Shown piece after piece: positions 3,006 through 38,106 of a DNA stretch of 40,434 nucleotides. Made by a program: the position numbers and the translations under genes. Source of the stretch: Merismopedia glauca CCAP 1448/3 (lineage in GTDB: Bacteria > Cyanobacteriota > Cyanobacteriia > Cyanobacteriales > CCAP-1448); the NCBI RefSeq assembly GCF_003003775.1, contig NZ_PVWJ01000039.1:1-40434 (forward strand), read 5' to 3'. The notes beneath the pieces are model-generated. The model was not told the origin of the DNA and did not search any database. It saw only the letters and a list, made by a program, of their open reading frames with translations. Within the stretch, counting starts at the first letter, position 1; every line of letters starts with the position of its first letter.

Positions 3006-4754
3006 ATGGATAAACCGCTAGGGATAGTCATTCAAGGTTCGCTGACAGCAGGATTAGAAATTAGATTACACCCAGATATCTCGGTAGAAGATATGCGGGT
3101 AGGGAAGTTTTTGGTGGTTAGAGGTGTACGCGCAGATTTTTTCTGTATCCTCACAGATGTCTGTTTGGGAACCTCTAGTCCCCGCATTATGGCAAATCCC
3201 CCCAGTCCAGACGATGATTTTTTACAAATGGTATTAGCTGGAAGCGGTACTTATGGCACTATTGAATTAGCACCGATGTTGATGTTGAATCGGGAAGCAA
3301 ATAGGAATGAAGTCAGAAGTCAGAAGTCAGAAGTCAGAAGTTTAAATGGCAAAAATGGTCATGATGAAGAGAAGAACTCCTCTAAGTTAGCATCTTTTGA
3401 AGCGCAAACTAGTGCAGATATTCAGTTGTTACCTGTTAAAACTATTCCCAGTCATTTTAGTCAGGTTTATGATGCTCAAGAACGAGATTTTCGCTCGGTA
3501 TTTGGCTGGGAAGATGACCCTCATCGCTGCAATTTTTCTATTGGCGAACCTCTAGATATGAGCGTTCCAGTTTGTTTAGATTTACACCGATTTGTAGAGA
3601 GAAGTAATGGCGTTTTTGGAAAATCGGGAACTGGTAAATCTTTTTTAACGAGGTTACTACTAGCAGGTATCATCCGTAAACAAGCGGCTGTCAATTTAGT
3701 TTTTGATATGCACTCAGAATATGGTTGGGAAGCAGTCAAAGAGGGGAAGCAATTTAGTACAGTTAAGGGTTTAAGGCAGATATTTTCTGGACAAGTAGAG
3801 ATGTATACTTTAGATCCAGAATCAACGAGAAGAAGAGGCGTGAGAGATGCACAGGAATTGTATCTGGGTTTAGACCAAGTTGAAGTTGAAGATATTAAAT
3901 TAGTCGCTCATGAATTGAATTTATCAGAAGCAAGTATCGACAATGCCAATATTTTAGATGGGGAATTTGGCAAAAATTGGATTACTCAATTAGTGAGTAT
4001 GACTAATGAAGATATCCAAATGTTTTGCGATGAAAAAAGGGGTCATAAAGGTTCAATTATGGCACTGCAACGCAAGTTAATGCGCTTAGAAAATCTGAAA
4101 TATATGCGTAGTACTTGTCCGAAAAACTATATCGACCAAGTTTTGCAATCTTTAAAGGCTGGAAAACACGTAATTATTGAATTCGGTTCTCAATCAGATA
4201 TGCTCTCTTATATGCTGGTAACTAACATGATTACCCGCAGAATTCATCGTTCTTACGTCAAGCAAGCCGAGACATATTTGCAAAGTAAAAACGTGAGCGA
4301 TCGCCCGCAGCAATTAGTCATTACAATTGAAGAAGCTCACCGTTTTCTCGATCCTAGTATCGTCCACAGCACCATCTTTGGGACTATCGCCAGAGAGATG
4401 CGAAAATACTTTGTGACTCTCTTAATTGTCGATCAAAGACCATCAGGAATTGACAACGAAGTCATGTCTCAAATTGGAACGAGAATCACCGCGTTACTCA
4501 ATGATGAAAAAGACATTGATGCCATTTTTACAGGTGTTTCTGGTGCGGGAAATTTACGCTCTGTTTTATCTAAATTAGACTCCAAACAACAAGCTTTAAT
4601 TTTAGGTCATGCAGTACCCATGCCAGTAGTAGTTAAAACCCGTCCTTATGACCAGAAATTCTATGAAGAAATGGGCGATCGCGATTGGTCAGAAATGCCG
4701 GATGCACAGCTATTTGCTTTAGCCGAAGCAGCTAAAAACGATCTAGGATTTTGA
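3006..4754 (+). CDS. HerA-like ATPase (HAS-barrel and DUF87)
   Basis: Hexameric AAA/FtsK-HerA superfamily ATPase. The N-terminal ~90 residues (GIVIQGSLTAGLEIRL, VGKFLVVRG) look like the HAS-barrel; the ATPase core has Walker A GKSGTGKS near residue 204, Walker B VITIEEAH near residue 440 and an arginine-containing DQRPSGID segment. HerA family members translocate along DNA or remodel complexes, usually with the NurA nuclease; no NurA is seen here. The frame is open from a GTG at 2931, but that GTG sits in a HIP1-like palindromic stretch, and the ATG at 3006 (582 aa, MDKPLGIVIQG) fits the usual start of the family, so 3006 is preferred. A heptamer tandem repeat at 3309-3341 is translated in frame between the barrel and the ATPase core. 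Single gene; the partner is unknown. Confidence 0.88.
   Translation: MDKPLGIVIQGSLTAGLEIRLHPDISVEDMRVGKFLVVRGVRADFFCILTDVCLGTSSPRIMANPPSPDDDFLQMVLAGSGTYGTIELAPMLMLNREANRNEVRSQKSEVRSLNGKNGHDEEKNSSKLASFEAQTSADIQLLPVKTIPSHFSQVYDAQERDFRSVFGWEDDPHRCNFSIGEPLDMSVPVCLDLHRFVERSNGVFGKSGTGKSFLTRLLLAGIIRKQAAVNLVFDMHSEYGWEAVKEGKQFSTVKGLRQIFSGQVEMYTLDPESTRRRGVRDAQELYLGLDQVEVEDIKLVAHELNLSEASIDNANILDGEFGKNWITQLVSMTNEDIQMFCDEKRGHKGSIMALQRKLMRLENLKYMRSTCPKNYIDQVLQSLKAGKHVIIEFGSQSDMLSYMLVTNMITRRIHRSYVKQAETYLQSKNVSDRPQQLVITIEEAHRFLDPSIVHSTIFGTIAREMRKYFVTLLIVDQRPSGIDNEVMSQIGTRITALLNDEKDIDAIFTGVSGAGNLRSVLSKLDSKQQALILGHAVPMPVVVKTRPYDQKFYEEMGDRDWSEMPDAQLFALAEAAKNDLGF
3309..3341 (+). repeat. In-frame heptamer tandem repeat GAAGTCA x4.7
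   Basis: Four full GAAGTCA units plus GAAGT inside the HerA-like gene. It encodes EVRSQKSEVRS. The reverse complement (TGACTTC) is the same heptamer found in intergenic arrays at 8010-8037, 10115-10130 and 14124-14139. Confidence 0.9.
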
Positions 4755-5094: not shown

Positions 5095-7377
5095 ATGAGA
5101 AGAACCCTGACAGCATCTCCTCAAGGTATTCAACTTATCAAAAAGACCTTCAGAAATAAAAAATGGTCGCGAGATTTGATCGCGGGTAAAGCTGGTTGTT
5201 CTCGTCAGACAATTTGGAGTTTGCTAAACGGCAATCCTATTGACTGTGATACTTTTATGAATGTCTGTAGAGAATTGGGATGTAGTTGGGAAGAAATTGC
5301 TGTATTGTCAGGCGAAGCAGATCTAGAAGAAAATATAGATCTGGAATTATTCGTCCAAAAACTGAGAGAAATTGTCAAATCCGATCTAGAAACTCGTTGT
5401 GGAACAATGCGGATCTTAGATATGACTCAGCCTGTAGGTTTGAGTCATATTTACACTCAAGTTAATATCCTAGAAAAAATAATTGGACGCAGACGTAAAG
5501 ATCTTGATGAATTATTTAATAACTGTAACTTAGAAGAGTTTGAACGCTTTGGTTTAGGAAAAGTTACTGAAGCCAAAATACCAGCTAAAGAAGCTGTCAG
5601 CAAATATCGCCACCTGATGATTTTAGGAAAACCAGGGGCTGGAAAAACAACTTTTCTTAAATATCTGGCAAATCAATGTAATGAAGGTAAATTTCAAGGC
5701 GATTTAGTTCCATTTTTTGTAACTTTAAAAGATTTCGCGGAAGTAGAGAATCAGCCAGGATTATTTACTTATCTGAGCCACTATATTCTTAAACAAAAGC
5801 AAGAGACTTTAGAGCAGGTTTTTAGTCAAGGGAAAGCTTTAATTTTACTTGATGGGTTAGATGAAGTTTTAGATAGACATAGCGAACGAGTATTAAAAGC
5901 AATTCGAGATTTTTCTACCAAGTTTCCTAGTAACCAGTATGTGATGACTTGTCGTATTGCTGCCAAAGAATACGTTTTTGAACAGTTTACTGAGGTAGAA
6001 ATAGCTGATTTTGATTGGCAGCAAATTACTACTTTTACCAACAATTGGTTTAGAACTAAGGTCATTAAACCAGAAACTTTTTTAGAACGATTAGAAAAAG
6101 ATGAACCAATTCAAGAACTAGCTTCTAATCCTTTATTATTAACCTTACTTTGTTTGGCATTTGAAGAATCGGGAGATTTTCCTGGTAATCGGGCGGGATT
6201 GTATAAAGAAGGTTTGGATGCACTGCTGAAAAAATGGGATGCAAAGCGAGGAATTAGACGAGATGAAGTTTATCAAAAACTTTGGGTACAGCGCAAAGAA
6301 GATTTATTGAGTAAGATTGCTTGGGATACTTTCGCGCCAGGAGAATACTTTTTTAAACAAGACAAAGCTGAAAGATATATTAGTGAATATATCCGTAATT
6401 TACCTGGTGCTAATACGGATGAAGAAGCCTTGCAATTAGATAGTGAAGTGGTTTTGAAATCTATTGAAGCACAACATGGTTTATTAGTCGCTAGAGCTAA
6501 TCAAATTTATTCTTTTTCTCATCTGACTTTTCAGGAATACTTTACCGCACGAGAAATTATCATTGTGCGTCAATCTGCTGAATCTGCACTGCAAGAATTA
6601 GTCAATCATATTTTTGAAAAGCGCTGGCGCGAGGTATTTTTATTAGCAGTTGCTATGTCTAGCAATGCAGATAAATTAGCACTGTTGATGAAGGAAAAAA
6701 TCGATAAATTAATAGCAAATGATGAGAAATTACAGCAATTTTTGCAGTGGTTGAATGAGAAAACTAAAGCTGTTAATATTAGTTTCAAAGCCGAAGATGC
6801 TCAAAAAATTCAAGATATAATTAGTTTTTACAACAATATAAACCTCTCCCGATCCCTCTACCTCTCCCGATCCCTCTACCTCTCCCGATCCCTCGACCTC
6901 TCCCTCTCCCTCTCCCTCTCCCGATCCCTCTCCCTCGACCTCTCCCTCTCCCTCGACCTCTCCCTCGACCTCTCCCGATCCCTCGACCTCTCCCTCGACC
7001 TCTCCCGATCCCTCGACCGATCGCTCAACCTTGCTCAAAAATGTGATCGCGAACTATATCAAGAACTTCAAAAACTTAACGATAGACTTCCTGACAAAGA
7101 AAATGAAAAAAAATTTAAACGATGGTGGCAAGCTAACAGTAATTCTTGGCGAGAAGATTTAAGAGCAATTATGATTAAATACCGCAATATCGGTCACGAC
7201 TGGCAATTCAGCGACGAACAAAAAGACCTATTAAAAAAGTATTATCGTGCTAACCAACTATTAACCCAATGTCTGCATCAAGAATGTTACGTCAGCCGCG
7301 AAGTGCGACAAGAAATTGAAGAGACTTTGCTGCTACCCATCGCCGAAAGTGATCGCAGACGCTCTAGCACTCTATAG
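5095..7377 (+). CDS. HTH-NACHT NTPase with LS/RS/LD dipeptide-repeat region
   Basis: A 760-aa STAND NTPase. Residues about 15-75 form a helix-turn-helix-like domain (WSRDLIAGKAGCSRQTIW). The NACHT core has Walker A GKPGAGKT near residue 180, Walker B ILLDGLDEV near residue 250 and a sensor-like YVMTCR. The helical region follows, with the usual SNPLLLTLLCL and YSFSHLTFQEYFTA motifs and a C-terminal helical segment (RWREVFLLAVAM). Residues 584-646 are an almost pure alternation of L or R with S, D or Y, encoded by hexanucleotide repeats. The last ~115 residues are charged and include WW-type motifs (RWWQANSNSW). Bacterial NACHT proteins (bNACHT) act in antiphage defence; the effector here is not obvious, and the HTH may be a DNA- or protein-binding module. 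It is divergent from the small membrane protein and sits next to a HerA-like ATPase. Confidence 0.9.
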   Translation: MRRTLTASPQGIQLIKKTFRNKKWSRDLIAGKAGCSRQTIWSLLNGNPIDCDTFMNVCRELGCSWEEIAVLSGEADLEENIDLELFVQKLREIVKSDLETRCGTMRILDMTQPVGLSHIYTQVNILEKIIGRRRKDLDELFNNCNLEEFERFGLGKVTEAKIPAKEAVSKYRHLMILGKPGAGKTTFLKYLANQCNEGKFQGDLVPFFVTLKDFAEVENQPGLFTYLSHYILKQKQETLEQVFSQGKALILLDGLDEVLDRHSERVLKAIRDFSTKFPSNQYVMTCRIAAKEYVFEQFTEVEIADFDWQQITTFTNNWFRTKVIKPETFLERLEKDEPIQELASNPLLLTLLCLAFEESGDFPGNRAGLYKEGLDALLKKWDAKRGIRRDEVYQKLWVQRKEDLLSKIAWDTFAPGEYFFKQDKAERYISEYIRNLPGANTDEEALQLDSEVVLKSIEAQHGLLVARANQIYSFSHLTFQEYFTAREIIIVRQSAESALQELVNHIFEKRWREVFLLAVAMSSNADKLALLMKEKIDKLIANDEKLQQFLQWLNEKTKAVNISFKAEDAQKIQDIISFYNNINLSRSLYLSRSLYLSRSLDLSLSLSLSRSLSLDLSLSLDLSLDLSRSLDLSLDLSRSLDRSLNLAQKCDRELYQELQKLNDRLPDKENEKKFKRWWQANSNSWREDLRAIMIKYRNIGHDWQFSDEQKDLLKKYYRANQLLTQCLHQECYVSREVRQEIEETLLLPIAESDRRRSSTL
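6844..7030 (+). repeat. Hexanucleotide repeat array inside the NACHT gene
   Basis: About 30 units of six bases, mainly CTCTCC, CGATCC, CTCGAC and CTCTAC, in frame with the gene (codons 584 on). They encode LS, RS, LD and LY dipeptides. Strongly C+T rich on the coding strand, unlike the A+T-rich surrounding gene. Confidence 0.95.
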
Positions 7378-8009: not shown

Positions 8010-8037
8010 ACTTCTGACTTCTGACTTCTGACTTCTG
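8010..8037. repeat. Heptamer tandem repeat (ACTTCTG) upstream of the tRNA
   Basis: Four units of ACTTCTG, ending eight bases before the tRNA gene. The same heptamer family is found between other genes and, inverted, inside the HerA-like gene. Confidence 0.9.
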
Positions 8038-8045
8038 CTATACCT

Positions 8046-8353
8046 GGGGTTGTAGCTCAGATGGATAGAGCGAGCGCCTCCTGAAATATCGGGCACCACG
8101 ATGGGGAAACCTCGTGAGTGAATGCGGTCAAATTCAAGGAAGCCTAAATCTACCTAGACTGCGATCGGCAGCTAGTCATAGATATGGTAATCTTGAGCCA
8201 AGCTCTACTCAAGTGCGGGTAGAGAAGGTGCAGAGACTAAACGATCGCCGCCTAAAGGCAAAATTTGCCGATGGTGAAGAGATAGTCCAGAGAGTGGGGA
8301 AACTCACACAAATCTGAAGCGCTAGGTCGCCGGTTCGAGTCCGGCCAGTCCCG
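8046..8353 (+). tRNA. tRNA-Arg(CCU), interrupted by a group I intron
   Basis: The exons 8046-8082 and 8317-8353 fold as a complete cloverleaf. Acceptor GGGGTTG pairs with CAGTCCC (8346-8352) with two G-U pairs; the discriminator is G8353; CCA is not encoded. D stem GCTC/GAGC; anticodon stem AGCGC (8073-8077) with GCGCT (8319-8323); T stem GCCGG/CCGGC with loop TTCGAGT. The spliced anticodon loop is CTCCTAA with anticodon CCT at 8080-8082, reading AGG codons. A37 after U36 is expected for t6A. The gene ends 15 bp before the YdcF-like start codon. Confidence 0.95.
8083..8316 (+). ncRNA. Group I intron (IC3-type) in the tRNA-Arg(CCU) anticodon loop
   Basis: A 234-nt intron placed directly after the anticodon. 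P1 is clear: exon CCT plus intron GA (8080-8084) pair with TCGGG (8089-8093), giving the conserved U-G wobble at the 5' splice site (T8082 with G8091). P2 follows (CACGA/TCGTG). Core elements are visible: P near 8131-8149 (AATTCAAGGAAGCCTAA), Q near 8189-8203 (AATCTTGAGCCAAGC), R near 8229-8243 (TGCAGAGACTAAACG) and S near 8277-8290 (AAGAGATAGTCCAG). The last intron base is G8316, as required. It encodes no homing endonuclease; the short frame at 8114-8317 lies over the catalytic core. Expected to self-splice. Confidence 0.93.
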
Positions 8354-8368
8354 TATGATTCTGGTTTC

Positions 8369-8965
8369 ATGGTCGTCAAGCAACATTATCGCCCTCAAAA
8401 AAAGCGTGTTAGAAAGCGTTCTGGTTGGCGAACCTTCTGGTTTGGGCTGTGGTTTTTGATTTGCGTAGTTTTTGGTTGGTTGGCTTCTAGACAAATCGCC
8501 AACTATTTTGTCACCCCAGATGCGATTTTTGTGTTGGGGGGAGAACCAGAAAGGGAAAAGTTTGCGGCTCGTTTTGCCAGTCAGTACCCTAATATAGAAG
8601 TTTGGGTATCTGGGGGCAGTCCTCAAGGATATGCTCAAAGGATATTTGCTAAAGAGGGGATTTCTGCGGATCGCTTGCATTTAGACTACCGTGCCGAAGA
8701 TACGGTTACCAATTTCACCACTTTAGTCTCAGAATTCCAAAATCGGGGGATTCGCAGCATTTATTTAATTACCTCAGAAGATCATATGCTGCGGGCGAGA
8801 ACTATTGGAGAAATAGTTTTGGGGACTAAGGGAATTTTAATCGAACCTGTGACCATACCAACAGAGCGATCGCCTGAACCCGTCAACAAAACCTTCCGCG
8901 ATGCTGCTAGGGCTTTTCTCTGGATAACTCTGGGTTATTCTCCTTCTAAATTACCTCCGAAGTAG
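8369..8965 (+). CDS. YdcF/SanA-family protein (DUF218), membrane-anchored
   Basis: A 198-aa DUF218 protein. An arginine/lysine-rich N-terminus (residues 1-22) precedes one membrane segment (FWFGLWFLICVVFGWLA, about 24-42), so the domain probably faces the periplasm. Domain motifs: PDAIFVLGG, VWVSGGSP, the EDTVTNF segment with an acidic residue typical of the family, and the LITSEDHMLRA motif. The biochemical role of DUF218 proteins is poorly known; E. coli relatives SanA and ElyC affect envelope barrier and lipid carrier metabolism. ATG start 15 bp after the tRNA. Its 3' end overlaps the convergent transporter gene by 20 bp. Confidence 0.9.
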   Translation: MVVKQHYRPQKKRVRKRSGWRTFWFGLWFLICVVFGWLASRQIANYFVTPDAIFVLGGEPEREKFAARFASQYPNIEVWVSGGSPQGYAQRIFAKEGISADRLHLDYRAEDTVTNFTTLVSEFQNRGIRSIYLITSEDHMLRARTIGEIVLGTKGILIEPVTIPTERSPEPVNKTFRDAARAFLWITLGYSPSKLPPK

Positions 8966-35926: not shown

Positions 35927-35956
35927 ACAAAATTAATTGAATATTTGGCTAAGTAA

Positions 35957-35998
35957 CGAGTAATGAGTAATGAGTAATGAGTAATGAGTAATGAGTCA
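35957..35998. repeat. Heptamer tandem repeat GAGTAAT
   Basis: Five to six units of GAGTAAT ending GAGTCAAT, between the fbp promoter region and the terminator of the channel-like gene. Confidence 0.9.
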
Positions 35999-36134
35999 AT
36001 GCGAATCTGGCACACCGCCGAGCGGCGGCTAGGTTAATCGGAAGGCAAGGTGTAATAAGCGGATATTTAGCTGATTTTATCTGAAATTTGGCAAGAAAAA
36101 AGCGATCACCCTAGGTTCGATCCACCTACCCCAC

Positions 36135-37975: not shown

Positions 37976-38106
37976 GGCGTTGCTGAATCAAGGTATGAAC
38001 TAGGTTGACACCCCAATTCGGAATAGTGAGAAATAAGGGCGAAAGAAAACCCAATCAACAATCAACAATCAACAATCAACAATTCATACTTCAAATCAGC
38101 AATGCC
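37976..38106. mobile_element. MITE-like element with 26-bp inverted ends
   Basis: Left end GGCGTTGCTGAATCAAGGTA (37976 on) and right end (38081-38106, inverted) match at about 20 of 26 positions. The 131-bp element encodes nothing. The ends resemble the terminal repeats of cyanobacterial IS elements, so a transposase elsewhere could mobilise it. Inside is a CAATCAA heptamer array (38052-38080). Confidence 0.65.
38052..38080. repeat. Heptamer tandem repeat CAATCAA
   Basis: Four units of CAATCAA plus a partial fifth, directly before the right end of the MITE-like element. Confidence 0.9.

Follow-up and report, generated by a model that had tools for sequence, protein, structure and literature searches.

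A cyanobacterial tRNA-Arg(CCU) gene in Merismopedia glauca carries a group I intron of a widespread, apparently undescribed one-site family

The window analyzed here, a 40,434-nt stretch of Merismopedia glauca CCAP 1448/3 (contig NZ_PVWJ01000039.1), carries a tRNA-Arg(CCU) gene on its plus strand at positions 8046-8353 for which an earlier note, made from the letters of the DNA, had claimed a 234-nt group I intron and suggested an Infernal search. Using cmscan at gathering thresholds, we obtained a single Rfam match in the window, RF00028 on the plus strand, which spans the full-length model with a score of 77.5 bits (cut-off 50, E 3.6e-18). ARAGORN detected no tRNA in the window when run without introns; with introns allowed, it reported a tRNA-Arg(cct) whose 234-nt intron lies between ctcct and aagcg; the joined exons give the normal cloverleaf with anticodon CCU that the note had described. 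The 5′ exon (8046-8082) runs to anticodon C34-C35-U36 and the 3′ exon (8317-8353) ends in discriminator G with no encoded CCA. Between them lies the intron (8083-8316), with a G as both first and last nucleotide and with splice junctions common to 132 distinct related genes. It interrupts the anticodon loop immediately 3′ of the anticodon (CCU|AA), separating U36 from A37. The unspliced gene also folds better than 100 of 100 shuffled sequences (z -3.3). The interrupted tRNA-Arg(CCU) gene is confirmed by the covariance-model match, by a spliced tRNA that is intact, by covariation, and by intron-free sites at orthologous loci; the note was right on its coordinates, its length, and its splice features. 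Assignment to subgroup IC3, which the note had assumed, is plausible, its basis being the host gene and the small size of the intron only.

Immediately 3′ of the tRNA, a DUF218 (YdcF-like) gene occupies 8369-8965 on the plus strand (Pfam PF02698). By synteny, the same gene follows tRNA-Arg(CCU) in many cyanobacteria, intron-bearing and intron-free alike, and serves below as a marker of the locus. On the other side, a heptamer tandem repeat (ACTTCTG x4, 8010-8037) lies directly upstream of the tRNA gene; other heptamer tandem repeats occur at 3309-3341, 35952-36001, and 38052-38083. Further upstream, 5095-7377 encodes a NACHT NTPase with a helix-turn-helix start and an NCH2 end (bacterial NACHT type), possibly a defence protein, whose middle part contains LSRSLDLS-type repeats encoded by tandemly repeated DNA at 6842-7018.

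For the secondary structure of the intron, we aligned 44 diverse endonuclease-free Arg intron copies (alignment A1). A P1-P9 structure including the P3/P7 pseudoknot kept 98.0% of its pair cells, a share favoured by construction since most of the structure came from RNAalifold on the same alignment. Compensatory changes on both sides were seen in 32 pairs, compared to 22.0 in shuffles, and the covariation score was 0.362 versus 0.148 in shuffles and at most 0.084 when partners were slid by one to three columns. The clearest independent sign of structure is that three adjacent P4 pairs switch together, dividing the 44 copies into 24 and 20 sequences. Together with the RF00028 score, covariation in this alignment rules out a chance match.

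All elements that the earlier note had listed (P1 with its U-G wobble, P2, the core segments, and the terminal G) were found on the plus strand. P1 (8080-8093, 99% of cells paired) joins exon CCU to intron GGG, with the U8082-G8091 wobble at the 5′ splice site, and is extended by a G-C and an A-U pair; the U-G pair is invariant (44/44). P2 (8094-8120) shows compensatory changes in 8 of 10 pairs. In the core, the 5′ strand of P3 (8124-8129) pairs with 8243-8248, supported by compensatory changes in 4 of 6 pairs, and the 5′ strand of P4 (8133-8139) pairs with 8191-8197, again with compensatory changes and with the UUCAAGG form that marks subtype A (see below). The P5 arm (8143-8187) contains the loop that holds an HNH gene in subtype-B relatives, while P6 (8203-8224) has compensatory changes in all six pairs. 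P7, the G-binding helix, is formed by 8233-8238 and 8284-8288, and its pairs are nearly invariant. Between P7 and P3 lies J7/3 (8239-8242), which is short in the window copy; according to the alignment and motif positions, subtype-A relatives have either a LAGLIDADG gene or a hairpin in this place. P8 (8249-8276) shows compensatory changes in both its outer and inner part, and P9 (8294-8307, GUGGG-GAAA-CUCAC) has 100% of its cells paired.

The intron and the tRNA are thus directly observed, and by close analogy we infer that the window intron is self-splicing. Judging from the structure and established group I chemistry, the intron in the precursor would fold around P3-P7 and P4-P6, and guanosine bound in P7 would direct a cut after U36 at the U-G pair of P1. 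The freed exon end would then attack after the terminal G, joining the exons into a normal tRNA. The window genome (5.2 Mb, completeness 99.97%) contains no group I match other than this intron, and the tRNA-Arg(CCU) exons match one place only, the 8046-8353 locus. A second, intron-free tRNA-Arg(CCU) copy was found neither in this genome nor in six complete genomes. With a sole group I intron in the sole tRNA-Arg(CCU) gene found, production of CCU tRNA should hinge on splicing; the AGG codon is in use, making up 7 of the 1836 codons of five genes in the window.

How common is this arrangement? Among 60 relatives, 28 have an intron at the same site and most others have an intron-free gene; across Cyanobacteriia, about 31 of 390 sampled genomes carry it. 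Altogether, we found 132 distinct forms of the same gene with an intron at the same base. A search with the 3′-junction pattern matched at least 116 named genome records, and ARAGORN confirmed the interrupted tRNA-Arg(CCU) in at least 109. The matches listed all belong to Cyanobacteriota and cover eleven orders; carriers include diatom endosymbionts as well as the complete chromosomes of Picosynechococcus PCC 7117, Arthrospira PCC 9108, Microcoleus vaginatus HSN003, and Calothrix. The rarity that the earlier note had supposed for such an intron in cyanobacteria does not hold up against at least 109 named cyanobacterial genome records with a copy at this site. The same pattern gave no match in viral contigs, and a plasmid search returned short tRNA-exon matches only.

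The P4 sequence divides the family into two subtypes: A, with UUCAAGG facing UCUUGAG, and B, with a GUCGGUG type facing a AUACCGAG type; three of the 132 introns remained unclassified, and the window intron belongs to subtype A. Endonuclease genes, present in 21 of the 132 distinct relatives, follow this division. Subtype-A introns carry a LAGLIDADG_2 gene on the sense strand in J7/3 (17 of 79 distinct introns), and subtype-B introns an HNH_2 gene on the antisense strand in P5 (4 of 50), with no crossed combination of subtype and endonuclease. The four HNH genes (in L076, L081, L184, and L196) lie within the P5 loop, opposite the tRNA strand. Three of the LAGLIDADG proteins and one HNH protein were searched against Pfam, the others being assigned by motif and likeness; these candidate endonuclease genes could enable some family members to spread. 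At least two LAGLIDADG genes are broken (L043 and L055), as expected for an endonuclease that decays once its intron is fixed. Many gene-free subtype-A introns have a hairpin of ∼60 nt at the LAGLIDADG place in J7/3, perhaps a scar. The 234-nt window copy has neither this hairpin nor an intron-encoded endonuclease gene.

The DUF218 gene allowed us to follow the locus independently of the intron. The closest DUF218 sister of the window locus is that of G390, a genome of the same family (support 96/94), which has the same gene order (tRNA, DUF218, AI-2E transporter, acyltransferase) and an intron-free tRNA gene. This provides, in a close relative, the orthologous intron-free allele looked for with homing introns. 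A single-gene tree of 75 DUF218 proteins, in which some branches are long and just 12 loci are intron-free, implies at least eight changes between presence and absence of the intron and at least six between subtypes A and B. Such repeated changes along the tree suggest mobility at the same site plus loss. In close Microcoleus relatives, both subtypes occur at the DUF218 locus. Their A introns (L189, L177, L042) and B introns (L154, L038, L168, L183) have a nearly identical P1-P2-P3 5′ part: the first 49 nt are 98% identical and the rest 68%, compared to a mean of 80% over the first 49 nt for other A-B pairs. We take this as a sign of a recombination breakpoint inside these introns, such that the exchange would have involved recombination within the intron.

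Taken together, these observations very strongly favour a functional, endonuclease-free group I intron of subtype A that interrupts the sole tRNA-Arg(CCU) gene detected in its genome and belongs to a cyanobacterial one-site family. This family appears to spread by homing and recombination and then to lose the endonuclease. In this scenario, Arg introns would have entered intron-free alleles through homing and recombination, with the endonuclease later disappearing, as in the window copy. For the family at large, we lean toward a live homing system at the anticodon: a large, apparently undescribed cyanobacterial tRNA-Arg(CCU) intron family with two one-site subtypes that have recruited endonucleases unrelated to each other, placed in separate loops and read from opposite strands, with exchange and recombination within close Microcoleus.

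A less probable account, which nonetheless deserves some weight, holds that the intron descended vertically from an early cyanobacterium, with many losses along the way, and that it is thus a long-standing resident, the endonuclease genes being late invaders and homing a minor process. In its favour, copies from many orders share one insertion site and often the tRNA-DUF218 locus as well, and the intron tree contains host-related clusters; loss, too, is able to yield a presence/absence pattern. However, A and B replace each other at the orthologous locus in close Microcoleus, with a recombinant 5′ part, and the intron closest to that of the window (80-85% identity) comes from another family, whereas the sister within the family has none. 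The A/B replacement calls for more than loss; sorting of old alleles is a possible route to it.

Somewhat less likely still is same-site transfer from alphaproteobacteria, or the reverse. The same tRNA gene hosts introns there: in the available text of PMC7717549, alphaproteobacterial Arg(CCU) introns have been known since Agrobacterium, as the earlier note had stated, and splicing was shown in Bartonella. These introns (including Bartonella BbgpI) are similar in size, the Bartonella gene measuring 308 nt, but belong to another phylogenetic group, and the likeness drawn here is one of host gene and size. That text mentions no endonuclease gene, whereas the cyanobacterial relatives include LAGLIDADG or HNH carriers. 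Against a transfer, the cyanobacterial family is diverse and broadly distributed, which points to long residence. One 3.5-Mb Sinorhizobium record gave no group I match.

A recent transposition of the cyanobacterial tRNA-Leu(UAA) intron into the Arg(CCU) anticodon loop is very improbable. Like the Arg intron, the Leu intron is a small group I intron of an anticodon loop in the same phylum, and the Leu(UAA) gene of the window genome is uninterrupted. Leu introns, though, sit after U34, and in a tree of 118 introns (the second we built, with L159 excluded for its isolated place) they group as a single clade, separate from every Arg intron (support 100/97), while the Arg introns occupy one side of a branch with support 96/93. 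The earlier note had seen a bearing on intron spread between anticodon loops; rather than a recent jump from Leu(UAA), which the tree does not support, our data point to gain and loss at the same site. Finally, the idea that the locus is a tRNA pseudogene with a degenerate, nonsplicing intron is extremely unlikely, given that no core pair and neither splice-site feature is damaged and that the tRNA, the sole one of its type detected, is likewise intact.

Other known bacterial introns of a comparable kind are the tRNA-fMet introns of cyanobacteria (Synechocystis, I-Ssp6803I), which share the anticodon loop and in some cases an endonuclease gene but differ in site and in the endonuclease, that is, a PD-(D/E)XK enzyme (PMC1995217) rather than LAGLIDADG or HNH, and the tRNA-Ile(CAU) introns of Azoarcus, Acidovorax, and Burkholderia, also anticodon-loop group I introns though in another tRNA. 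In the portions of the literature available to us (PMC5733544, PMC1995217, PMC3984707, PMC8450103, PMC7717549), bacterial tRNA intron hosts are Leu, fMet, alphaproteobacterial Arg(CCU), and Ile(CAU), and Leu and fMet are the sole cyanobacterial ones apart from very short introns claimed for other tRNAs. The latter, called "group I introns" in PMC5733544, measure 22-49 nt, much too little to accommodate a group I core, and do not belong to the Arg(CCU) family. Our search, which covered little subscription literature, found no cyanobacterial Arg(CCU) intron, and within that scope this widespread family is apparently undescribed. The window copy is a further case of a known intron type; it is the family as a whole that deserves a short description.

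Group I introns hide tRNA genes from standard annotation, here also from intron-free ARAGORN, so that AGG-decoding tRNAs can look absent in many cyanobacterial genomes. The family also offers a dense natural series of alleles at one site (intron-free, intron-only, with intact endonuclease, and with broken endonuclease). Cultured strains with complete genomes are among the carriers, and with such a series the gain, homing, and loss of a tRNA intron can be tested directly.

Beyond the Arg family, we observed a group I intron of 278-302 nt splitting the anticodon loop of tRNA-Asn(GUU) (CTGT|TAA) in three genomes of one family (G123, G341, and G277; introns L030, L031, L305, L306, and L307), that is, in 3 of 390 genomes searched. 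RF00028 scores about 85 bits in two of them, and no canonical U-G P1 pair is visible by eye. Asn is absent from the bacterial tRNA intron hosts named in the literature surveyed. In our first intron tree, the branch of these introns reached 7.7 changes per column, an alignment failure, and we discarded their placement. Further group I matches were L022, L028, L217, and L218, the flanks of which, by eye only, resemble ribonucleotide reductase coding sequence.
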